DNA of 20,224 nucleotides, from the IMG/VR virus record IMGVR_UViG_3300042987_000176, positions 1 to 20,224 of that record; one strand, 5' to 3'. Below the pieces are notes generated by a model, which saw nothing but the letters and a program-made list of their open reading frames with translations, had not been told where the DNA came from and made no database searches. The position numbers and the translations under genes were made by a program. This DNA comes from a virus. Positions 4,046-19,712 of the stretch are shown piece after piece. Each line of letters starts with the position of its first letter. The stretch's first letter is position 1.

Positions 4046-5248
4046 CTAGAGAGCAGCGATTGAGGAACCAGAGGTGATGCGATACAACGCTTCGTCACGG
4101 TAGACTGCGAAGCCGAGTACGCCGTACCAGCCCATTGGGCGGAAGCGCATCAACTTATCAGTTACGTTACCGATAACGATGTGTGGTTCTTCAGCAACAG
4201 CTTCAGCCATTGCTTGAGCACCACAGACGATTGTATTGAATACACGGGTAACTGGAGTAACAGTAACAGTTGTTGTTGCAGTAACTGCAGCGGTGTTAGC
4301 TGTATCTACAGTGAAGGTTGTGGTTGAGCCAGAGGTGCTGATTGCAGTAATCTTTGCACCTGAAGCGATACCAGTTCCAGCAATCTTATCTCCAACTTCT
4401 GCACGAGTTGCGATAGCAGCAGAAGAAGCAACACCGAAGGTGAAGCCTGCTGAAGTACCAGCAACGGTTACAGTGGTTGTAGGCAATGCTGTCTGGTCTG
4501 CACCTGACTTAGCATTGTAAAGACGTGGGGATTCGACGAAGAATGCACCTTCGTAGTCTCCGATTTCTCCTGCCCAAATCTTGTCTGCAGCAGGAGCGGT
4601 TTGTGCATGTACGAAGTTCCAGCCCATGTTTCCGGTTTCTGCACGAAGGTCGTGTGAAACTTCTGGGTGAATACCTGTCCAGTACAAGGAACCACGGCGA
4701 GCCTTAGCCTTGTTGGTGCGGAGACGAGCAACAGCCTTGCGGATGTCAGCTGAGTCAATTGTATCAGCTGCAGCAACAGTTGCTACTGTGGTTGCAGAAC
4801 CTGAGAAGATGTTGTTTGAACCAGAGCGGAGGGTTGTCATTGCGACAGAGTCGATTGAGTCAGCGAGGTTGTAAGCAATGATGTTTGCAATCGCTGGGTC
4901 GACATCTGCGAGTGAGAACAACTCGAGTGCACGGGTTACGAGAACTGCATTACCGTACTCATTGAGAGTAATGGTGACAGTTGTCGGTGTTGATAGAGAA
5001 ACTGCATCTGGGTCAGTTGTCTCTGTAAGAGTTGAAGTAACCTGGTCTAGGTCGACATACTTCTGGAGTACGACGGTTTGTCCAGGAATTGCTTGACGGG
5101 CAGGACGCTTATCTGCGACCGAACGGATTAGTGGTTCGGAACGGAGAGCGAACTCGAGAAGGCGGTCATATGCCTTCTGTACGAGACCTGCGCCACCAAC
5201 TGTTCCACCGAGAGACGTGCTCGCGGTTGAGGTATATTGGTTTGACAT
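4046..5248 (-). CDS. Major capsid protein, N4-gp56 family, with inserted beta domain
   Basis: The protein is 400 aa. The ATG at 5248 has AGGAGAC about 8 bases ahead. It shows the N4-gp56 capsid pattern: a helical arm (AYDRLLEFALRSEPLIRSVA), IPGQTVVLQKY, LTETTDPDA, NEYGNAVLVTRALEL, IHPEVSHDLRAETG (residues 193-206) and AGEIGDYEGAFFVESPR (226-242). It ends with AVAEEPHIVIGNVTDKLMRF and RPMGWYGVLGFAVYRDEALY. Residues about 246-334 do not fit the fold. They form a Thr/Ser/Val-rich insert with VGDKIAGTGIASGAKITAIS, resembling small beta domains in phage decoration and fibre proteins. The scaffold gene is 31 bases upstream and a hairpin follows. There is no long N-terminal delta domain, so scaffolding is supplied in trans. 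The capsid call is strong; the role of the insert is inferred. Confidence 0.92.
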   Translation of the reverse strand: MSNQYTSTASTSLGGTVGGAGLVQKAYDRLLEFALRSEPLIRSVADKRPARQAIPGQTVVLQKYVDLDQVTSTLTETTDPDAVSLSTPTTVTITLNEYGNAVLVTRALELFSLADVDPAIANIIAYNLADSIDSVAMTTLRSGSNNIFSGSATTVATVAAADTIDSADIRKAVARLRTNKAKARRGSLYWTGIHPEVSHDLRAETGNMGWNFVHAQTAPAADKIWAGEIGDYEGAFFVESPRLYNAKSGADQTALPTTTVTVAGTSAGFTFGVASSAAIATRAEVGDKIAGTGIASGAKITAISTSGSTTTFTVDTANTAAVTATTTVTVTPVTRVFNTIVCGAQAMAEAVAEEPHIVIGNVTDKLMRFRPMGWYGVLGFAVYRDEALYRITSGSSIAAL

Positions 5249-5279: not shown

Positions 5280-5759
5280 TTATTGTTGTGACTGAAGGAT
5301 TGACAACAGTTCTTCAGCAGAAGCTGCTTGATTCAGACGCTGGTCTAAATCCAATCCTCTATCAGGTGTCACAGCACCCTGTGTCAGCACATCTTGCTGG
5401 CGTAGCCGAGCTAAGTCTTGCTGACTAATTGGTGCCTCTTCTTGCTGTACCTTGATTCCGAACAAGTCTGCGTTATCATCGAGCCAGTGAGATACTGACT
5501 CCTCGTTAACATCATCCAAATCCTTCAATACAAGGCGTGCAGCTTTTTCGTTGACACCTTTCTTTGCTAGGACTTCCTTGACTACTCGCTCACGCTGCAC
5601 CTTGGATAGTGACTCAAGTTGCTCAGTAAGTTCCTTGATTCTCTTTTCGTCAGCACGCTTGGCTTTACGAAGCTTCTTTAGTAAGTCGCTTCCATCGCCT
5701 GTGTACTGCTCTTGAGTATCTAGGTCGTCGTCTTCATCATCCCAGTAGTTGTTGCTCAT
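5280..5759 (-). CDS. Scaffolding protein candidate
   Basis: The protein is 159 aa and sits directly upstream of the capsid gene, the classical place for a scaffold. It has a very acidic start (YWDDEDDDLDTQEQ), a charged coiled-coil-prone stretch at about residues 23-65 (LLKKLRKAKRADEKRIKEL and on), a central helical segment with HWLDDNADLFGIKV, and a Gln-rich C-terminal helix (RLNQAASAEELLSILQSQQ) that could bind coat protein. High charge, helix content and small size fit scaffolds of P22- or N4-like heads, although sequence identity in these proteins is usually lost. It may be a substrate of the HslV-like hydrolase encoded upstream, which is an inference. Confidence 0.7.
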   Translation of the reverse strand: MSNNYWDDEDDDLDTQEQYTGDGSDLLKKLRKAKRADEKRIKELTEQLESLSKVQRERVVKEVLAKKGVNEKAARLVLKDLDDVNEESVSHWLDDNADLFGIKVQQEEAPISQQDLARLRQQDVLTQGAVTPDRGLDLDQRLNQAASAEELLSILQSQQ

Positions 5760-9314: not shown

Positions 9315-12300
9315 CTAGCCTCCGTAAACATGGTCGAATTTGTCATTTGCAAAATATCTTTCATAGAATTTAGCGAACATTGGGTCTTGGCGTTTTAAGC
9401 CATCTACATACTCAGCAACATCATTGCGGATATAAACAGCTTTCATAGAATCAATTGTTGTACCCATCTGTTGTAGGCTACCGTATACATCGTATCTGAA
9501 GTTTAGATACTGTGCTACTGCATACCAGCGTGGGTTCTTAGATAAATCTTTCCACAACTTATCATCATTGATAGCATAGGATAGAGCATCAACAAGTTTA
9601 GCTTGACGGCTGCCAGCTCCGCCACCAGAGTATGCATCATACTCTTCGAACCATAGTGGGTTCTTGGCCTTCATCTGCTCAAGGAAGTCCTTCTTGTAGT
9701 AATCTACAATAGTCTTTCCATAGCCGCGGTTAGGATTGTATGGCTGGTCTCCACCGATACCATTACGTACTTCATCTTCAATGGCTGTGATAAACTTATT
9801 CCAGTCGTTCCATCCTTTAGAGACTACAGAGCTTCTAGCAGAATCAAATGCTGCTGCTGTGTCGCGGAACTTCTTGCTTGTATTAGGTATAGCATTACGC
9901 TCTAACCAAGCTTGAGCCTTAGATGAAAACGCATAGTCATCGTCATTGAAGATTGCTCCCAAAGCAGTAAGGTTATCCTCACCTAGAATAGCGACCAAGT
10001 CGCTAACCATTTCTGGGTTCTTTTTAACTAGTGCTACTGCAGTGTCATCAGAGCGTAGTCCGCTTGTTGCCTCAGATAAGCTGTCAGCAAGTAAGAACAA
10101 ATCTGGGTTCTCATCTACAAAGCGTTGTTCGCCATTGAGTGGGTCTTCTTTACGCATACGAGCTAACTCATCAGCGTATGGCTGAAGTGCTGTCACATAG
10201 CGTGGCTGTGCCGGAGAGGTAAAGGCAGCCAACACACGTACTGTTGATAGAAGAAGCGCATTCTTCTGGGCTTCATCTGACATAGCCTCTAGTTCTAAAG
10301 CTGTAGGTTGACGATGGTATTGCTGTACAAAGTCAACTCGTTCCTGCTTAAGGAACATATTTGTGTCCCTATTGAACTGTGCTTCATCTCTTGTAATTGT
10401 TCCAACAACAAGCTGACCTATACGACGGATAGTATTAGGAAGTAGAGCGTTAGCTGAGTTGGCTTGAACGCCAAATGGCAGTACCCACTCTGTAACTTTC
10501 TTGGTTACTTTATCTTCTCCGCCTACTCGATTGACGTATTCGTTCCATCCTGCTGCGGCAACTGGGCCAGCACCAAGGATAGATGAACCTGTTGGGTTGA
10601 ATACGTTGAACCAATCAGATGGTACACGGGCTGTAAGGCCTAGGATAGGTAATTCTACCTCGATAGATTCCTGTCCAAATGGGTCTTCTGTAGCACTAAA
10701 TACTCTATCTGGAATCTGCTTAATAGCCACTGCTTTAGGTAAAAAGTCAGGGTGCTCTAGGGTAATACGACCATATGCACGGAACTGCTCTACTACCGCA
10801 GGGAAGAAGGCGATGATATAGTTAATCATTCCGCTATAGTTCATATCCCTGTGGAAAGCATTAAGCTTATTGCGGTATTCACTGATAGCATACTGGCGAG
10901 CTAAGCGCTCAAACTGTTGTCTATCCTTAAGAGTAAGCTTACGATTCTGTGCATTTGCTAGAAATACCAGGTTCTGTAGCTTCTGCTCATACTTGAAAGC
11001 AAAGTAAGGAGCAAACATAAGTTTGCTTGTAGGTGCTGTTGATAGCCATTCTACACCCTGGCGCAACATTTCTTTGCCCTTCATATAGGCGTTGCTTGTG
11101 CCGAGCATATCTCTAGCTAGGTCAGTGATGATGACTGGGCGTGCGTCTACATCTGGGTATAGTTTGCGTAGCGCATCTACAGTTACCGCATCATCTAAAA
11201 TAAGTTTATGTAAGGCAGAACTTGGGGCGAACTGCTTAAGCAAATCACCAACACGGGTCCATACCACTTTTCCATCGCTAGGGCGAAGACCCATACGGGA
11301 CATATACTGCTGTCCCTCTGGGGTATTGCGTAGCCATTGGTTGACCTTAGAGAAGTTAGCACCGCTCATCATCATGCGTGCTACTTCATCGTTAGCAATT
11401 TCATCTTTAAGTAGATTCTGCCATGATACTAAGTGTAGTTGTTCGTCACGACGTGGCTCAATCGCTTGGCTTCCAGTACGATTACGGCGTAGGTTACTAG
11501 CCTCAATCTCGCGGATACTGGATAGTGCACGGCGGAGGTCCTCACGCTGGCGTAATTGCTGCATGCTCATCTCGCCAAAGCGTCCACCAGAAGCTGATGG
11601 GAAGTCATAGCCTGCCACTGTAATCTTATCTTTAGAGATTCGCTTGACCGCTGGGGCATTGTTGACGATAGCAATCTCTTGCTTGCGTAGAGCATCAGCA
11701 GTAGCCATCATATCATTAAGATACTTGACAGCTCGTTGCTGTTCTGCAGTCATCAACTGTGGGCTCATCGGCACAATACCAGTCTTGGACGCAGAGTATT
11801 GGAACCCTGATTCGTCTAGCTTCTCACGCAATACACGAATAGTCTCATCGCGTAGGAAGATATCGTTTCTGATATTCTCAAGATTCTTCTTTGGGTCTAC
11901 TGGGCCAAGGGCTGTCTTGAACTTAGACTTAGTATTAGAAGTATTTGTTATAGCACGAAGTGCATCTTCTGATAGAATCTTAAGTACAGGGAACAACGCA
12001 CCATCACCAAGCATACGGACTGAAGAGTCGCGGATAATGTTGGTTGGATATCCTGCACGAAGTAGGGTGAATCCACGCCATAATGAGTTGAACTCATCTA
12101 GCAAGAACTTACCCGTAAGAGCTACGTTGGTTGGAAGGCTAGCTTCTTCACCCAATTTCTCTTTATAGCGCTTGAATGCTTTATCCCATAGCTTAGCATC
12201 AGGCAGATAAGCACCGTTAGCTAGTTGGCTGATGAGTTGTGGGTCATCAATGGTATCGCCATTCTTGGCAATCATGTAGCTACGGCCTTCGGCAGCAGCC

Positions 12301-14174
12301 TTCTTTGCCTCAACTAGTACTTCTCTGTGGGCATCATCCCAAGCCTGAAGCACGGTGTCAGTTAGTTCCTGAGGTACGTTATACTTTGCTGACAAAGACT
12401 TGCCTAGGTTGACAGCATACTCTTGAACTATATTAAACTTATCTATTTCATTAGTTGATGTAATGAATCTATTGTACAAATTCAAGCCATCTTTAGGGTC
12501 CATGCCTGCGTTAGCAACAGCATTTCGGACGCTAGCACGCATTCTATCAGATGCTACAAGGGCATCATTGAAGTTGATTGTATCGCGTGGGGCGTCATCT
12601 GTTGCCCTATCAAACCAACGAATAGCTACAGAGAATGGGCTTCTCTGGTAGAATCCTTGAATAACTCCACCGAAGCGTGTCTCACGCACCAAATCGTCAG
12701 CCTTACGAGAGGTTGACTTGATGCCAGCCTTACTTAGTTCAAACTTACGGGCTGCTCGTTCCTTGGTTAGGTCATTGCGTACACGTTCTGCCCAAGCAAA
12801 GCGGGATACAGTTCTATCTGTTAGTGAGCCCTGTAGGGTATTATCTGCAACAGACCAAAAATCACTTTCTTTCTTTACAGATTCTACTTCCTTCTTTAGG
12901 AAGTCTAGGGTATTTTTGAAATTGTTAGATACTGTTAGTACCTGTCCCTTGTATCGTACATATGTCTGGCCACCTGACTCAGCAATAGCTATTGAATCGC
13001 TCAAGCGGTTATACTCACCAAGTTTAGCAGCAGACTTAGCGCCGAGTTCATCGATTGCGTCTTTATCCCCACGACCTACGCGTAGCACTAAGCCAATAGT
13101 CTCGTCATCAGCGCCAGCTACAAGGTGTGCTGCAATCTGTCCCATCTCATTACGGAACTCTGGGCGCTGTGCTACAACAGCAGCCTGGTTTTCTCTGTAA
13201 AACTTAAAGACTGGTGTATATGCTGTCTCTTCTCCAGCAACAGTACGCTTGATTAAGTCAACATCATCGTATAATCGCTGAGCTGCTTGCTCTGCTTCTT
13301 TCTTGCTGAGTACTTTTGCAAACAAACCAGTACGTTCAGGGGTTACAGCTGCGCCAATAAGGGCTGGACGGGCTACTGCGCCTACACCTTTGAACAAACC
13401 TACGTCAGGACCAGCTGAAACTTCTAGTCCAAAGTTAAGAATACCTGATGTGATGGCACCAATACCCTTAGTTGTGTCACCAAGAGTCTTGAAACCTGTG
13501 ACATCCGCTGCAAAACGGGTGACATCTCTACCAAAATTGTATGATTCTTGCCCGACATCTTGCTCAGAGAACTTAGATGAGCGGTAAAGTTCGTTAGCAT
13601 TGCGCTTGACGAAGTCGGTTTGTGTTATCTCGCGCTGTAATTTACCAGCAGTAGCTGCACCAAGGCTAGCACCAGCGGCTGCACCGAGTGGACCGCCTAC
13701 TGCAAAACCACCAACACCACCAAGAATAGCACCTGTTACAGTGAATAGACCGGAAAGTAAGCCAAGGGCTGCATTCTTACCACCCAAATCACGGGCAAAT
13801 GCGTAGTTGCTACGGACATTGCCTGCACCTGCCATCAGAAGCTTGCTTAAATCGCCTTCTGTAGCCTTATCAAGCTGTGCAAATGCTAAGGGAATGGTTC
13901 CAAGTGCAGCGCCAGCCAAGGCTCCTGGAGGGCCTGCAAAGCTTCCTATAGCTGCACCAGTTAATGGGCCAACTCTCATGGCTTCACCTAGAATGTCTAC
14001 ACCTTTTAGGCGTGCTGATTCAATGGCATCGTTCCATGCCCCAGGATTTTTGGGGATGTTCTGTGCAGCATCTTTAGCCAGCATGAATGGAATGCGGTTG
14101 TTGATTGCACCTGGCATATTTTGAGGATATGCCGCCTTTTGAGCGTTACCTAGTCTATCCCATTGGGTTGACAT
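9315..14174 (-). CDS. Giant internal virion / DNA-ejection protein candidate, 1619 aa
   Basis: This single uninterrupted gene covers about a quarter of the window. The ATG at 14174 forms TAATG with the stop before it. Two Gly/Ala-rich hydrophobic stretches near the N terminus (residues about 69-98, GPLTGAAIGSFAGPPGALAG, and 134-177, GAILGGVGGFAVGGPLGAAA) look like glycine-zipper membrane segments. The middle is long and helical with many charged repeats. Around residue 1115 lies MINYIIAFFPAVVEQFRAYG, resembling a segment of phage large polyvalent proteins (LPD38-like, weak). I see no lysozyme, polymerase or protease motif. Size, glycine zippers and place among head genes suggest a protein stored in the head and ejected to form a channel, as T7 gp14-16 do. 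It is not a tape measure: regular coiled-coil repeats are absent and it lies upstream of the capsid gene. Confidence 0.7.
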   Translation of the reverse strand: MSTQWDRLGNAQKAAYPQNMPGAINNRIPFMLAKDAAQNIPKNPGAWNDAIESARLKGVDILGEAMRVGPLTGAAIGSFAGPPGALAGAALGTIPLAFAQLDKATEGDLSKLLMAGAGNVRSNYAFARDLGGKNAALGLLSGLFTVTGAILGGVGGFAVGGPLGAAAGASLGAATAGKLQREITQTDFVKRNANELYRSSKFSEQDVGQESYNFGRDVTRFAADVTGFKTLGDTTKGIGAITSGILNFGLEVSAGPDVGLFKGVGAVARPALIGAAVTPERTGLFAKVLSKKEAEQAAQRLYDDVDLIKRTVAGEETAYTPVFKFYRENQAAVVAQRPEFRNEMGQIAAHLVAGADDETIGLVLRVGRGDKDAIDELGAKSAAKLGEYNRLSDSIAIAESGGQTYVRYKGQVLTVSNNFKNTLDFLKKEVESVKKESDFWSVADNTLQGSLTDRTVSRFAWAERVRNDLTKERAARKFELSKAGIKSTSRKADDLVRETRFGGVIQGFYQRSPFSVAIRWFDRATDDAPRDTINFNDALVASDRMRASVRNAVANAGMDPKDGLNLYNRFITSTNEIDKFNIVQEYAVNLGKSLSAKYNVPQELTDTVLQAWDDAHREVLVEAKKAAAEGRSYMIAKNGDTIDDPQLISQLANGAYLPDAKLWDKAFKRYKEKLGEEASLPTNVALTGKFLLDEFNSLWRGFTLLRAGYPTNIIRDSSVRMLGDGALFPVLKILSEDALRAITNTSNTKSKFKTALGPVDPKKNLENIRNDIFLRDETIRVLREKLDESGFQYSASKTGIVPMSPQLMTAEQQRAVKYLNDMMATADALRKQEIAIVNNAPAVKRISKDKITVAGYDFPSASGGRFGEMSMQQLRQREDLRRALSSIREIEASNLRRNRTGSQAIEPRRDEQLHLVSWQNLLKDEIANDEVARMMMSGANFSKVNQWLRNTPEGQQYMSRMGLRPSDGKVVWTRVGDLLKQFAPSSALHKLILDDAVTVDALRKLYPDVDARPVIITDLARDMLGTSNAYMKGKEMLRQGVEWLSTAPTSKLMFAPYFAFKYEQKLQNLVFLANAQNRKLTLKDRQQFERLARQYAISEYRNKLNAFHRDMNYSGMINYIIAFFPAVVEQFRAYGRITLEHPDFLPKAVAIKQIPDRVFSATEDPFGQESIEVELPILGLTARVPSDWFNVFNPTGSSILGAGPVAAAGWNEYVNRVGGEDKVTKKVTEWVLPFGVQANSANALLPNTIRRIGQLVVGTITRDEAQFNRDTNMFLKQERVDFVQQYHRQPTALELEAMSDEAQKNALLLSTVRVLAAFTSPAQPRYVTALQPYADELARMRKEDPLNGEQRFVDENPDLFLLADSLSEATSGLRSDDTAVALVKKNPEMVSDLVAILGEDNLTALGAIFNDDDYAFSSKAQAWLERNAIPNTSKKFRDTAAAFDSARSSVVSKGWNDWNKFITAIEDEVRNGIGGDQPYNPNRGYGKTIVDYYKKDFLEQMKAKNPLWFEEYDAYSGGGAGSRQAKLVDALSYAINDDKLWKDLSKNPRWYAVAQYLNFRYDVYGSLQQMGTTIDSMKAVYIRNDVAEYVDGLKRQDPMFAKFYERYFANDKFDHVYGG

Positions 14175-14650
14175 TATATGATTGTCCCCAAGAATCTGAC
14201 ATAGTCTTTAGTCGCTTGAGGAGTATCTGGTTGACTTGCCCAAAATTGCATGACTGGGTAGTACATACGTACTGTATCCAAATCAGGGTCTCCTGTTGGT
14301 CCTTGAGGTAATCCTAATTCAGCAAAATCTAATCCGCCTGGAAGGCGTGAGCCAGAACGAATATCTTCTTCAGGAAGTCTTGTTGCTTCTGTTATTGGAG
14401 TTACTGGAGCACCAGCCATGCTAGTAGAAAATGTCCTACTTCTAGGAGCAGGGTTTGCTGCACCTGCTGTACCAGCTACACCTGGAGCTGCCTGAGCTAA
14501 CTGATTTGTCTGTCCAGTTGTACCATAGCCCATACCACGGTATTTAAGTTCTACATTCTTTGGGTTCTGTCCATTGCCACCCGTAGCAGAAACATTTGCT
14601 GGATTATTCTGTGGCGCTGTGGGGCGAAACCCACCTCTATTTTCCGCCAT
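14174..14650 (-). CDS. Gly/Pro/Ala-rich disordered protein, 158 aa
   Basis: I chose the ATG at 14650 (MAENRGGFRPTAPQNN), which has a near-perfect AGGAGG 7 bases ahead. An upstream in-frame ATG at 14671 has no such site. The start lies inside the end of the 80-aa gene in another frame, so the codons for its PEED residues double as the ribosome binding site. Residues 1-95 are low-complexity Asn/Gly/Ala/Pro/Thr and probably disordered. The C terminus (PDLDTVRMYYPVMQFWASQP and on) has an aromatic helix. It may be a flexible linker or head protein between the portal and internal protein genes. No family is recognised. Confidence 0.7.
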   Translation of the reverse strand: MAENRGGFRPTAPQNNPANVSATGGNGQNPKNVELKYRGMGYGTTGQTNQLAQAAPGVAGTAGAANPAPRSRTFSTSMAGAPVTPITEATRLPEEDIRSGSRLPGGLDFAELGLPQGPTGDPDLDTVRMYYPVMQFWASQPDTPQATKDYVRFLGTII

Positions 14651-14879
14651 TGATATCCTCCTCTGGAACATACGAATATTCTTCTGCTGATAGTAACATA
14701 CCCTTGGCTAACCAAGGATTCATGTTTTCACTGACATCTGTCATGAGATAGCGTGTACCTTCGTAATCGCTCCACTCACTTACTAATACCCATCCAGTAC
14801 ATATTTGACTATCTGAGTCTTCTAATTCTTCTGCAAGTATCCTCATTGCTTTTTCAATAGCCTCTGAGAACTTGCTCAT
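14637..14879 (-). CDS. Small acidic protein, 80 aa, actinophage-like
   Basis: The ATG at 14879 overlaps the stop of the HslV-like gene (ATGA). The sequence starts MSKFSEAIEKAMRILAEEL, then ICTGWVLVSEWSDYEGTRYL with a beta pattern, then WLAKGMLLSAEEY and an acidic tail. GWVLVxEWxDxxGxRxL followed by a W-x-x-x-G-x-L element is one I have seen in small proteins of phages of actinobacteria, of unknown function. The direct coupling to the hydrolase gene raises the idea of a partner or regulator, but nothing in the sequence proves this. Confidence 0.7.
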   Translation of the reverse strand: MSKFSEAIEKAMRILAEELEDSDSQICTGWVLVSEWSDYEGTRYLMTDVSENMNPWLAKGMLLSAEEYSYVPEEDINGGK

Positions 14880-15421
14880 TTGTGTTGTTCTTCTACTTGA
14901 TATGGCGCGGCTGTGTATGCACTAACTCGTGCAGCCACTTCCATAGCACGGATGGCATCAGCGCCTGCGTAAAGAGCTCCAAGAGCGTAGGCCCCGCCAC
15001 TTCCGATGGCATAGAATCCTTCTCCACTCTTCATCACCGCCAAGTCTTGGTCGACATCAAAGAGCTCGCCACCAACTGCGATGAGAAACTGGAATCTAAG
15101 TCCATCTTTATCTTTGTCGTGCGCTTCGTCGAAGTTGTAACCATTCTCGACTAAGCATTTGCGAAGTGAAGGCATAGCCTTGACAATCATATACCGATAG
15201 GCATCTTTCTTGTCCTTCGCTGAAAATACTGGTGGCACCCAGATGTTCTGGGCTATATCACAGGGAGCCACCTCTCCCGCCCCTGCAATAAGCAGGGCGC
15301 CCCGTTGTGCAATCTTTCGCATTACAGGATGTGAATAAACTTTACCACTATCGTCAGTGATACGGCTGTCGGCTACAATGACAGACTTGTCATCATACTC
15401 AACGCCAATAATCGTAGTCAT
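14876..15421 (-). CDS. HslV/proteasome-beta-like Ntn-hydrolase, candidate head maturation protease
   Basis: The protein is 181 aa, close to the length of bacterial HslV (about 175). It begins MTTIIGVEYDDKSVIVADSR; removal of Met would expose Thr2 as the catalytic N-terminal threonine. Numbered from that Thr, Asp17 lies in the VADSRIT motif that matches proteasome beta subunits (ADSRAT). Lys35, in MRKIAQ, corresponds to Lys33 after a two-residue insertion, and IAGAG (45-49) matches the oxyanion glycine region. FYAIGSGGAYALGAL (137-151) matches the HslV AIGSGG-x-YA segment and supplies the catalytic serine. All key residues appear intact. AGGAGGGGACA precedes the ATG. No HslU- or Mpa-like ATPase is in the window. 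It follows the portal gene, where phages usually encode the prohead protease, and no other protease is visible. I infer cleavage or removal of scaffold or internal proteins. A free-standing role on host proteins is the alternative. Confidence 0.85.
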   Translation of the reverse strand: MTTIIGVEYDDKSVIVADSRITDDSGKVYSHPVMRKIAQRGALLIAGAGEVAPCDIAQNIWVPPVFSAKDKKDAYRYMIVKAMPSLRKCLVENGYNFDEAHDKDKDGLRFQFLIAVGGELFDVDQDLAVMKSGEGFYAIGSGGAYALGALYAGADAIRAMEVAARVSAYTAAPYQVEEQHK

Positions 15422-15435
15422 TGTCCCCTCCTAGA

Positions 15436-17199
15436 TTATCGTCGACGAATAGTTCTTACGCTTGCGTTAGCTTCTCCGCCGGCTGTTAGACTTGAAAGAA
15501 GACTCATGATATCTGGTGGTCCGCCTGCTTCAACTTGAGGAATAGCGCCTCCTGCCGGAGCAGCGGGAGCAGGGGACGGTTGCTCAACCATTGGTGCGCC
15601 AGCAGGAGGAACCTGTTGTTGTGGGGCAGGGAAGATTTCTTCAATTGCATCTTCAATCGCCTGTCCCTTTTGGCGTGCCTTGATTACTTGTGCAATCTTA
15701 GATACGATTTGACTTGGGTCTCCACCGCTAGCGGCAAGCTGAGGAATAGCTTGTGTGTAAGCTTGGAGTGAGGCAAGGAGCGCAGTACGCATCTCTTCAA
15801 TCTCAATCTTCTCAACCTCTTGGCTGACATTGACGCTGAATGGTAGTTCACGCATAGCCATATCTTTAGAGATAAGTTTACCACCCAAAGCCTGGAGCAT
15901 AAAGATAAGACCTTGAGCAGGGTTTAATCCTGCAAGCATTCCATAGCGTACATCTGCAGAGTAATCACCCTTGATATCCTTACGAGGATTATAGGTAATT
16001 TCATATGGAGCACCTGCATCTACACCACGAATTGTCTTTTCGTCTGGGAAAATCTTTTCATCAACTTCAAAGCAAATCTGTATTACATCACGGAGGGCGC
16101 TAGCAAAGATTGCTTGTGCAGATTTGACCTGGGTATCGAATGCGCCCATGAGAGCCTGAACGCCCTGACCCGTGACAATCGATGCGTTGACATTGCCTGT
16201 ACGGCCTTCAGGATAGCGAGCACCAACTCGTAGTTCCTGGTTCAACAAAGTCTGTTCTGTAAATGCGCCTTGTGGTAGTGTTAGTTCTACGCGGCGTACA
16301 CCTGCTGGGTTGCTTGTACGAATGACAGCATCTCCACCAAGTTGTAATTCCTGTACATCTTGTGGAAGTACGATTGGAGACTGTACCGACTTCTCTGCAG
16401 CTTCCATAGCAAGGAGTGCAAAACGGTTGCGTAGCAACTGAATACCTAGGATATCATCAAACTGTCCACGCAGTTCGCCATCGATAGATGGTTTACGTGC
16501 GACAACAATCATCATCTTACCGAGTGGATTCTTAACAGCAGACAATACAAGATTGTTCTTATCTGGTAAGTAAATTACTGACTGGTCTTTATCGTAGTAA
16601 CGAACCATCTCAATGAGAGAGTTCAAGTCTTGCTTATAACCAAGTCCACCAAGGAGCGTGCGCTCATACTCAGGGAATTGTGACACGAGTTCGCCTAGTG
16701 TCATTTGGTAACGCTTCGCAAACGCGATGCAACGACCATATCGGTCGAACTCTGGGTAAGCACCCACTGGGTTTTCTAGGCGAATACGAGGAAGCTTAGC
16801 TTCAGCATCTAATTCAATTACGAATGGTAGGAAGCCGTATGTGATGTACCAGTCCGCACCCGAATACATCTGAACGGATAGGTCAGAATGAGCAAAATAA
16901 TTGCTAGCGATGCGAGTACGCTTGTCAGCAAAAGCACGAGCGCGGTCACTCGTTTGGTTTGCCGCTGAGCAGTTAACGGCTGGCAGAGGTGCCATAACTT
17001 CCGATAGGTCTCGAGCAACAATGTCAATAAAATTTGCAACGACATTGGCATCTACTCCATCTGGAAAGAAGTCAGGATATACGCTGGCAATCTGACCTTT
17101 ACGGACAGCAAGGACATCAAGGTTGCGTGCGTCCCTGTCTGAGTTACGAAAGCGCAGCGAGTCAACGCGTGCAGCAATCTGTTCGATTGAAAGTGCCAT
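15436..17199 (-). CDS. Portal protein
   Basis: The protein is 587 aa, with its ATG at 17199 and AAGGAT just ahead. It follows terL by two small genes, as is usual for portals. The N-terminal helix ALSIEQIAARVDSLRFRNSD and IASVYPDF, the central wing region (WYITYGFLPFVIELDAEAKL, RLENPVGAYPEFDRYGRCIA) and a long helical stem region (LLRNRFALLAMEAAEKSVQS; VGARYPEGRTGNVNASIVTG; QALMGAFDTQVKSAQAIF) fit the SPP1 gp6-like portal arrangement. The C terminus from about residue 525 is Pro/Gln/Ala-rich and likely disordered (PAPQQQVPPAGAP), ending in a basic TIRRR. It would form the dodecameric ring through which DNA is packaged and ejected. The assignment rests on position and architecture. Confidence 0.85.
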   Translation of the reverse strand: MALSIEQIAARVDSLRFRNSDRDARNLDVLAVRKGQIASVYPDFFPDGVDANVVANFIDIVARDLSEVMAPLPAVNCSAANQTSDRARAFADKRTRIASNYFAHSDLSVQMYSGADWYITYGFLPFVIELDAEAKLPRIRLENPVGAYPEFDRYGRCIAFAKRYQMTLGELVSQFPEYERTLLGGLGYKQDLNSLIEMVRYYDKDQSVIYLPDKNNLVLSAVKNPLGKMMIVVARKPSIDGELRGQFDDILGIQLLRNRFALLAMEAAEKSVQSPIVLPQDVQELQLGGDAVIRTSNPAGVRRVELTLPQGAFTEQTLLNQELRVGARYPEGRTGNVNASIVTGQGVQALMGAFDTQVKSAQAIFASALRDVIQICFEVDEKIFPDEKTIRGVDAGAPYEITYNPRKDIKGDYSADVRYGMLAGLNPAQGLIFMLQALGGKLISKDMAMRELPFSVNVSQEVEKIEIEEMRTALLASLQAYTQAIPQLAASGGDPSQIVSKIAQVIKARQKGQAIEDAIEEIFPAPQQQVPPAGAPMVEQPSPAPAAPAGGAIPQVEAGGPPDIMSLLSSLTAGGEANASVRTIRRR

Positions 17200-17217: not shown

Positions 17218-17442
17218 TTACTTGCTTGGGTAAAATGTTTTTTTGATTTTAGCTTTTGCTTTTTTAGGTATCAAATCTGGTCTACTAAATCCTGGGTCAA
17301 TTGGTCCATTACCAGAGTTTCTAGAATATATTGGCTCTACATAAGAATCATTTGGAAAATTTGGATTAGCTGCACCCCAACCAGGTTTTTTACCTGAAAC
17401 GATGTCGTCAAAAATCTTTTTGATTTTTTTATTGTCTGCCAT
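17218..17442 (-). CDS. Small Lys-rich protein, 74 aa, function unknown
   Basis: The ATG at 17442 has TTAGGAAA just ahead. The sequence has basic ends and a Pro/Asn/Gly/Ser-rich centre: MADNKKIKKIFDDIVSGKKP, then NPNFPNDSYVEPIYSRNSGN, then PKKAKAKIKKTFYPSK. The central part looks unstructured. Base composition is noticeably more A/T-rich than that of the adjacent portal and terL genes, which may mark a later insertion. No family is recognised. It sits between a basic protein and the portal in the same transcription unit. Confidence 0.65.
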   Translation of the reverse strand: MADNKKIKKIFDDIVSGKKPGWGAANPNFPNDSYVEPIYSRNSGNGPIDPGFSRPDLIPKKAKAKIKKTFYPSK

Positions 17443-17459
17443 ATTTTCCTAACTAAATC

Positions 17460-17834
17460 TTAATATGTGTTGTATGTAGGGTTGACGCTCTTGCCACCCT
17501 TACCTGTAATTCCACCAGAGGAGCGACCAGTTAATCCGCGTCGTCTATCTTCCTTTACTGCTTTTGCCGCAGCACGATTAGTTACACCTTTTGCTCTTGC
17601 AGCACTTCTATCAAGTTCAGCAGATTTAGTTTTCTGCATCATTCTTGCTGCATCTCTTTCGCCTTCGGTTGGCGTTCTACCAAGAAGTCTATCTAGTCCT
17701 CTAGCTTTTCCGCGATTGAGGTCCATTACTGTATCAGCAGTTGACTGCTGATAGTCATTTGTTTGTGCAGCATGTCTAGCCCAATAAGCTTTATCTTCAA
17801 CCTGGCTAACCGACTGGCGCTTTATCTTTGCCAT
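17460..17834 (-). CDS. Basic protein between terL and portal, 124 aa
   Basis: The ATG at 17834 has AGGAG 7 bases ahead. The protein is helical and rich in Arg, Lys and Ala: MAKIKRQSVSQVEDKAYWAR, LNRGKARGLDRLLGRTPTEG, ERDAARMMQKTKSAELDRSA and KAVKEDRRRGLTGRSSGGIT. The C-terminal 25 residues are Gly/Ser/Tyr-rich and probably flexible. It could bind DNA or the portal/terminase during packaging, but the evidence is charge and position only. A separate small terminase is not otherwise seen, and this is one alternative candidate, though it lacks a clear helix-turn-helix. Confidence 0.7.
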   Translation of the reverse strand: MAKIKRQSVSQVEDKAYWARHAAQTNDYQQSTADTVMDLNRGKARGLDRLLGRTPTEGERDAARMMQKTKSAELDRSAARAKGVTNRAAAKAVKEDRRRGLTGRSSGGITGKGGKSVNPTYNTY

Positions 17835-17843
17835 TGTTGGCTC

Positions 17844-19712
17844 CTATCCGTATGTCTGTTGCCATTGTTCTGCAATGGCTTCATCTAAGTTAATTGAGAA
17901 TCTACGCTCTGTCTGAGCTCTTGTCGCCCAGCGATTCTGCATCCATCGTGCTGACTGTGAGTGTTGCTGCATCAGTTCCCTGACGCGTATGATTGCAAAC
18001 CAGAGAGCCATCACGCAGTCGCTAGGGTTTCTAGTTTCAGGTTTCCAAGTAATCAACTGCTGTACAAGAGCCTTAAGCCCTTCACTACCTTCGTTAGAAG
18101 GAAGCTCTATCGAGTTGTTATCTTGGAATCGTCCATCTCTAAGGCTGCCAAAAAGGCTTGCCATAGAAGCCACACCGAAAGAAGTATCCCACTTATTCTT
18201 ACCAGTGAAGTGAGAATTGAGTTGGCACCCATACATCGAGAGCCAGTTACGCAAGTCGTCATCGAGTGCGTATGCTTTCTGGTGTGCGTTGATTTCAATT
18301 CGTAATTCCTGAGGCTTATACTTCTGAACCCATTCTTCAATCAGGGCTCTAATCTTCATTGGTGTTGGGTCAGTCATGTTTGCAGCATCCAACACATAAA
18401 TCATACTATCACTTCGGTTATAAGTCAAGACCACCGCTGCCGTGTTCCCCGTCATCGCAGGGTCTAGACCAATAACCGTATAAGCAGACTCTAGGTGTTT
18501 CGGGTGTCCTGGAGTACCCGGTTTAAGCGGGCCTCGCTTTCGCATACCGTTAACACATCCTGCAACTGCTGCTGGCGCGAATATAGCGTCTTCGACGACA
18601 TCTTCTTGTTGGTAGACCATCGCCCATACGGAAGGTGCCACTTCACTGCGGCGAGTAAAAAGCGAAGGGCCATCCCACTTCGGGTAGAGTCCTTCGGCGT
18701 TAGCCTCATCCTTATCGCCTTCAGGCCTGTCCGTCCACGGCCAAAGCGTTTTCCATCCTTGCGGTTTCTCATCAAACTCCAGTACGGCTGGCTGGGCAAA
18801 GTAGGTAAATGGAGATTTACCGCCAGTCCATTGTTGACCGTCCCGAATCATCTTGTATAAATCTACGGGCGCAACACGGGTCCCTACGATAAGTAGTTTC
18901 CCGTGTCGGCCTAAGCGTGTGATGACTTCTTTTTGAAGCCACTCAATTTGCTTCTCCCACTCGTGGGCATTGGAGTTCATCACAACATCGTCTAGGATAA
19001 TCAAATCGGCACGAGCACCGTAAATCTGTGAGCCAAAGCCTAGGGCTTGCACCGTAGGGTCTTTCTCACCTGAGTCTCGTCCGCTACCCAAATATATCAT
19101 ATCAGCAGACCACGTCTGTGAATCTGCTTTGTATCCACCATTCGGGCCAAAGGCCGTCTGGAGCTTAATCCAGTTAGGGTGGGAAAGTCTTGTCTTGATG
19201 GCGCTAAGGAACTTACGGGCCATACCCTGAGTCTTGGAGACCACGATGATTCTAACATTCGGGTCTACGGCTAGTCGGTAGGTCACATAGTTAATCGTGA
19301 TGACGGTGGACTTAGCGTGCTCGGGTGGTACGTTAATCAGGACTCGGTTAGCCGCGCCGGGTTCATAAACCATGGCGGGGTGTAACCATCGGGGCTCACG
19401 CCCCTCAATCAAGTCTACCCAATCCTTATGATGGTCAAAGAGCTTGGTATCTAGGAACTGCTCGCTGAACTCCTCAAAGGAGATATCCTTGAGGTTTTTT
19501 AAGTCAGCCTTAACGCCCTTGCCTTCTAGGCGGGCCTTGTCGGCCCTATCCTTGAAGTCGGTATCCTTCATCGTCCACTGGCGGAATGTTACTTCATTTC
19601 GGTTGACCGAGGCCATAGCTTGGGTGATGGTGCTACCCTGGCTCAGCTGTTGGAGCACCCGCTCCTTAGCCTCAGCCATAGGGATATCGACTTTACCCGG
19701 CTTTCGTCCCAT
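17844..19712 (-). CDS. terL: Terminase large subunit with N-terminal small-terminase-like HTH
   Basis: The protein is 622 aa, with its ATG at 19712 and GGAAGG 8 bases ahead. It is the ATP-driven DNA packaging motor and nuclease. Walker A is PPEHAKST (129-136) and Walker B is LIILDD (237-242). The coupling motif IVGTR lies at 275-279. The RNase-H-like nuclease acids are D417 in IGLDPAMTGN, E473 in RIEINAH and D565 in DCVMAL. The first 65 residues form an extra part: AEAKERVLQQLSQGSTITQA followed by RQWTMKDTDFKDRADKARLE, which reads as the helix-turn-helix of small terminase subunits (L-x-x-G-x-S/T ... W-x-x-x-D-x-x-F). No separate small terminase gene is seen. It is the first gene after the promoter at 20109-20137. 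The assignment is secure; the fused DNA-binding role is inference. Confidence 0.96.
   Translation of the reverse strand: MGRKPGKVDIPMAEAKERVLQQLSQGSTITQAMASVNRNEVTFRQWTMKDTDFKDRADKARLEGKGVKADLKNLKDISFEEFSEQFLDTKLFDHHKDWVDLIEGREPRWLHPAMVYEPGAANRVLINVPPEHAKSTVITINYVTYRLAVDPNVRIIVVSKTQGMARKFLSAIKTRLSHPNWIKLQTAFGPNGGYKADSQTWSADMIYLGSGRDSGEKDPTVQALGFGSQIYGARADLIILDDVVMNSNAHEWEKQIEWLQKEVITRLGRHGKLLIVGTRVAPVDLYKMIRDGQQWTGGKSPFTYFAQPAVLEFDEKPQGWKTLWPWTDRPEGDKDEANAEGLYPKWDGPSLFTRRSEVAPSVWAMVYQQEDVVEDAIFAPAAVAGCVNGMRKRGPLKPGTPGHPKHLESAYTVIGLDPAMTGNTAAVVLTYNRSDSMIYVLDAANMTDPTPMKIRALIEEWVQKYKPQELRIEINAHQKAYALDDDLRNWLSMYGCQLNSHFTGKNKWDTSFGVASMASLFGSLRDGRFQDNNSIELPSNEGSEGLKALVQQLITWKPETRNPSDCVMALWFAIIRVRELMQQHSQSARWMQNRWATRAQTERRFSINLDEAIAEQWQQTYG

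Follow-up and report, generated by a model that had tools for sequence, protein, structure and literature searches.

Proteasome homologues of phages, of unknown function, have already been published (Fuchs, Alva and Lupas 2021, PMC8665760). PPH and AAH, as described there, are proteasome-like proteins of Caudovirales which keep the catalytic triad and for which no partner ATPase was identified; for AAH, neither Actinobacteria-specific phages carrying it nor an informative gene context were found. The gene studied here encodes a proteasome-like hydrolase directly behind a phage portal gene, in the window (the whole stretch of 20,224 nucleotides that was analysed), which is a member of a freshwater clade of podoviruses of about 40 kb. 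The features that matter are listed below.

4046–5248, minus strand: major capsid protein, 400 aa, PHROG 1357, without an N-terminal pro-domain
5280–5759, minus strand: probable scaffold, 159 aa, PHROG 7813, encoded by a separate gene
9315–14174, minus strand: large internal or tape-measure-like protein, 1619 aa
14174–14671, minus strand: 165-aa protein, PHROG 8200, counterpart of Beephvirinae gp7; downstream edge of the slot
14637–14879, minus strand: acidic partner protein, 80 aa; its gene shares 4 nt (ATGA) with the end of the hydrolase gene
14876–15421, minus strand: proteasome/HslV-like N-terminal-threonine hydrolase, 181 aa, PHROG 1040 (family match and fold)
15422–15435, minus strand: 14-nt gap between portal and hydrolase genes; contains the strong ribosome site AGGAGGGG and bounds the exchangeable cassette upstream
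15436–17199, minus strand: portal protein, 587 aa, PHROG 104 (family match)
17844–19712, minus strand: terminase large subunit, 622 aa (family match)

The freshwater clade resembles the Streptomyces Beephvirinae in gene order, with terminases 46–49%, portals 43% and capsids about 50% identical. All but a few of the relatives are metagenomic assemblies. One of them, a 40-kb contig (G001, IMGVR_UViG_3300016643_000028) whose Ntn protein is 99% identical to that of the window, encodes a WhiB-family regulator at 23677–24048 on the plus strand; because of this gene and the homology to Beephvirinae, the hosts of the freshwater clade are probably Actinobacteria. The same contig carries, at 20995–23121 on the plus strand, an amidoligase gene (PF12224) beside a class-II glutamine amidotransferase-like gene, whose product starts with Met-Cys and is a second Ntn-type enzyme.

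The hydrolase gene, its fold and its active site

The preliminary description had placed the gene at 14876–15421, between the portal and internal-protein genes. Both the coordinates and the site are correct, the order being portal, hydrolase, 80-aa gene, 165-aa gene and 1619-aa gene, but the reading frame belongs to the minus strand (15421 to 14876); the plus strand of the same interval contains four stops. The start ATG abuts the codon for Thr2, and the protein reads MTTIIGVEY...VADSR...RKI...IAGAGE...IGSGGAYALGALYAG. The 80-aa partner accompanies some Ntn types only and gave no family match above chance. Variation is also seen in the slot between terminase and portal, which holds two small genes in the window (17218–17834) and an endolysin in Beephvirinae. 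Residues ~252–333 of the window's capsid (4046–5248) form a stretch of about 80 residues that is missing in capsids of about 318 aa, such as those of G017, G018 and G019.

In profile searches the hydrolase was recognised at a level well above chance: it matched PHROG 1040, the 'peptidase HslV family', with E 8e-28, and Pfam Proteasome with E 8.6e-5, a marginal value just over the gathering score. When the family profile was compared with the PDB, the best match was BPH (5ovu, E 7.8e-10). An AlphaFold2 model of the monomer (pLDDT 92.6) has the Ntn alpha-beta-beta-alpha fold, with helices at residues 51–59 and 74–92 and a charged loop at 93–110. Overlay with Foldseek again gave BPH as the best match (5ovs, E 8e-11), with HslV and 20S beta also among the top PDB matches, and a comparison with viral models returned many phage homologues, some of them named HslV or proteasome. 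Two genome-contig scans, of limited sensitivity with two short patterns each, found no cellular relative of the hydrolase.

Thr2, Asp18 and Lys36 correspond to Thr1, Asp17 and Lys33 of the proteasome. Among 159 distinct homologues encoded by related viral contigs, no substitution was seen at Thr2, Thr3, Asp18, Lys36, Gly49, Gly140 or Gly142; position 141, the serine of the GSGG segment, is occupied by Ser in 136 of them and by Thr in the other 23. These relatives were gathered with a pattern demanding Thr after the start; the invariance of Thr2 is not a product of that pattern, since only one candidate failed it, an apparently truncated fragment from L245. The frame in question (L245:1161–1544) seems truncated or frameshifted, possibly through a sequencing error. 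Purifying selection on the gene is evident from a median dN/dS of 0.085 over 851 close pairs and, taken together with the invariance of the active site, indicates that fold and catalytic set are kept by selection. Thus the threonine after Met, the aspartate of ADSR, the lysine and the GSGG serine, to which attention had been drawn at the outset, are invariant in relatives save for the Ser/Thr alternation at the last, and fold, catalytic residues and selection agree in confirming the protein as an N-terminal-threonine member of the proteasome-like Ntn-hydrolase superfamily. As judged from its sequence, the enzyme is probably catalytically active.

Connectase, in the same superfamily, provides a precedent for a ligase or amidase built on the Ntn fold instead of a peptidase (PMC8665760). 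Connectase lacks both first helices and carries a helical insertion (PMC8665760), whereas the chain in our model is compact, resembles HslV and BPH and has both of these helices, and we regard a connectase-like activity as very improbable.

Presence and absence beside the portal

A survey of phage genomes for portal-adjacent copies gave opposite results in the two groups. Of 99 de-duplicated readable freshwater contigs, 94 have an Ntn gene directly behind the portal and 5 lack it there, while none was found at any of the 56 readable portal loci of Beephvirinae, where three small unrelated genes fill the slot, or anywhere in the entire Immanuel3 genome. No PHROG 1040 match was found on six Ntn-lacking contigs, which are incomplete and cover 4–26 kb of about 40 kb. 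In one of these, G009, capsid and scaffold are 80% and 76% identical to those of the window, and across Ntn types and Ntn-lacking contigs alike the scaffold is 62–84% identical to the window's. Homologues in the cultured phages VpV262, DSL-LC01, Pumpernickel, D'Alembert and Pitbull lie in non-structural regions; those of D'Alembert and Pitbull are distant and stand outside the head genes, and both phages have a separate annotated head protease.

These patterns bear directly on the role proposed in the preliminary description, in which a self-compartmentalising Ntn ring in or near the prohead would mature the head by degrading the scaffold or trimming internal proteins. Its basis was the position of the gene, which in almost every freshwater relative does stand directly behind the portal and lies in a late operon, and the claim that no other protease and no partner ATPase are visible. 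That claim holds among the window proteins scanned. In the 40-kb relative with the 99% identical Ntn protein, ten larger proteins encoded outside the window's span likewise included no head protease and no HslU- or Clp-type unfoldase; the scan covered part of the small proteins. Both scans leave room for host HslU as a partner. To our knowledge, podoviruses that assemble their heads on a scaffold, T7 and P22 among them, do without a prohead protease, so that the missing second protease is weak evidence for a head role, and portal adjacency combined with it does not make the hydrolase a head-maturation protease.

Several observations argue against head maturation. The hydrolase is missing beside the homologous head genes of Beephvirinae and, at this locus, in near-identical freshwater relatives whose portal, scaffold and internal protein are the same. 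The capsid has no pro-domain but just an arm of about 20 residues before the homologous core, Ntn types are swapped while scaffold and capsid change little, and D'Alembert and Pitbull have their separate head proteases. An obligatory role in head maturation was rejected on presence and absence at the locus, as scored for Beephvirinae and for the five freshwater contigs, the latter being incomplete. Since the gene and the head genes do not travel together, the data lend no support to head maturation, which we now consider quite unlikely. The literature searched holds no relevant report of a phage proteasome in head maturation.

Exchange of the cassette and candidate targets

Natural exchanges at the locus are seen most clearly in G012 and G024, which are 98% identical in terminase and portal, 95% in the 169-aa protein and the large protein, and 96% in scaffold. 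Between them, an Ntn gene and its 75-aa partner are cleanly swapped for an 87-aa gene; DNA homology ends 17 nt past the portal gene and restarts about 14 nt ahead of the next gene. In the relatives compared, homology ends no more than about 25 nt from the portal end. In a second pair, L294 and L297, the portals are 98% and the large proteins 87% identical, and the Ntn enzymes only 29%. Overall the enzymes fall into three types, 26–49% identical to one another, behind portals that are about 80–98% identical. On a quick portal tree, from which exact numbers of changes are approximate, the window's Ntn type requires 12 changes, of which well-supported branches demand at least 8, and absence has at least two separate origins. 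The replacement proteins of 87–91 aa (L318:2749–3021, L331:5791–6060 and, on the minus strand, L409:9222–9485) have a basic N-terminus and an acidic C-terminus. They belong to no informative family, the 87-aa protein giving only weak partial matches to PHROGs 8955 and 20731, both of unknown function.

With moderate confidence, we conclude that the gene encodes an intact Ntn peptidase and forms an accessory cassette, open to exchange, in the slot that the portal and PHROG 8200 genes of freshwater podoviruses enclose, with host targets likelier than an obligatory head cleavage. Removal of Met would expose Thr1, and the subunits would assemble into a BPH/HslV-like ring, made late in infection together with the virion proteins, which could degrade its targets without a phage-encoded unfoldase. 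The targets would be host proteins, or unfolded or foreign proteins generally, and head assembly would not depend on the enzyme for a cleavage. Among these classes we favour host proteins, because the way in which divergent types replace one another while retaining the active site is reminiscent of host-interface genes. In the closest pairs, swapping leaves the portal and internal protein little altered, as it does the scaffold in G012 and G024, the sole pair reaching that gene, and this argues against co-evolution of the enzyme with a virion substrate.

The same comparisons bear on the idea that the hydrolase is packaged in the virion and injected with the DNA, acting early on the host. Its gene does lie between those for the portal and the large internal protein, and a comparison of the two main Ntn types shows the hydrolase diverging together with the internal-protein module, against conserved portals and terminases. 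However, the internal protein is still 87–95% identical across the near-isogenic swaps, no packaging signal is known, and we give an injected enzyme little credence.

Some observations count against our preferred reading, an accessory cassette with host targets. For an accessory gene, the hydrolase is tied to the portal with unusual constancy, and what replaces it is in most cases another Ntn enzyme, implying that one is needed continually. Ntn-lacking contigs, being incomplete, could carry a copy elsewhere. A search of a defence-system library gave no match, and no host target or link to defence was found. Moreover, a non-specific peptidase that clears scaffold could be equally free to be swapped. 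The nearest rival to host targets is a generic late peptidase that acts without specificity on scaffold after its release, on virion proteins that have misfolded and on peptides of the host, and is helpful without being required for assembly. It would account for free exchange together with the strong tendency to retain an Ntn enzyme of one type or another next to the head genes; the lack of an unfoldase among the proteins scanned is consistent with it, and the charged loop at 93–110 recalls the pore loop of BPH (PMC8665760). It leaves the divergence of types, 26–49% identical, and their swapping unexplained, and we consider it unlikely.

Host targets also admit a stronger formulation, possible in our view but doubtful, in which the slot beside the portal would serve specifically for the exchange of self-compartmentalising Ntn peptidases, used by actinobacterial phages as host-directed weapons or for counter-defence. 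Host targets or inhibitors would then drive the swapping of the three types in place, and the small 87–91-aa protein would sometimes do the same job.

Comparison with known systems

Among structures, the closest to the phage hydrolase by both profile and fold is BPH (5ovs/5ovu), which likewise has an N-terminal Thr without a propeptide and a charged loop. BPH is bacterial and about 20–25% identical to the phage protein, which is known as a monomer model. With HslV (ClpQ) the hydrolase has the fold and the catalytic residues in common, but no HslU was found in the window or among the scanned proteins of its relative. Assignment to HslV proper was rejected at 21.9 bits against an NCBIfam equivalog cut-off of 157.75 bits. 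PPH, as defined in PMC8665760, has about 140 residues and no helix H2, and was rejected for a protein of 181 residues with a long second helix.

The PHROG 1040 proteins of other phages (VpV262 ORF47, DSL-LC01 and Pumpernickel) belong to the same profile family, with E 8e-28 for the Pumpernickel protein, and share the Met-Thr start, Asp18 and the lysine in matching columns. Their genes lie away from the head genes, whereas that of the window's clade is fixed beside the portal. In Beephvirinae (Immanuel3, FlowerPower), the terminase, portal, PHROG 8200 protein, large protein and capsid are homologous and in the same order, and the difference lies in the slot, where the three small genes take the place of the hydrolase. 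The freshwater clade gives phage proteasome homologues a gene context, which is lacking in PMC8665760. A fixed portal-adjacent exchange site with natural pairs with and without the enzyme appears to be new, with no earlier report in the literature searched, and near-isogenic pairs that have the hydrolase, lack it or carry a very different one make its function testable.
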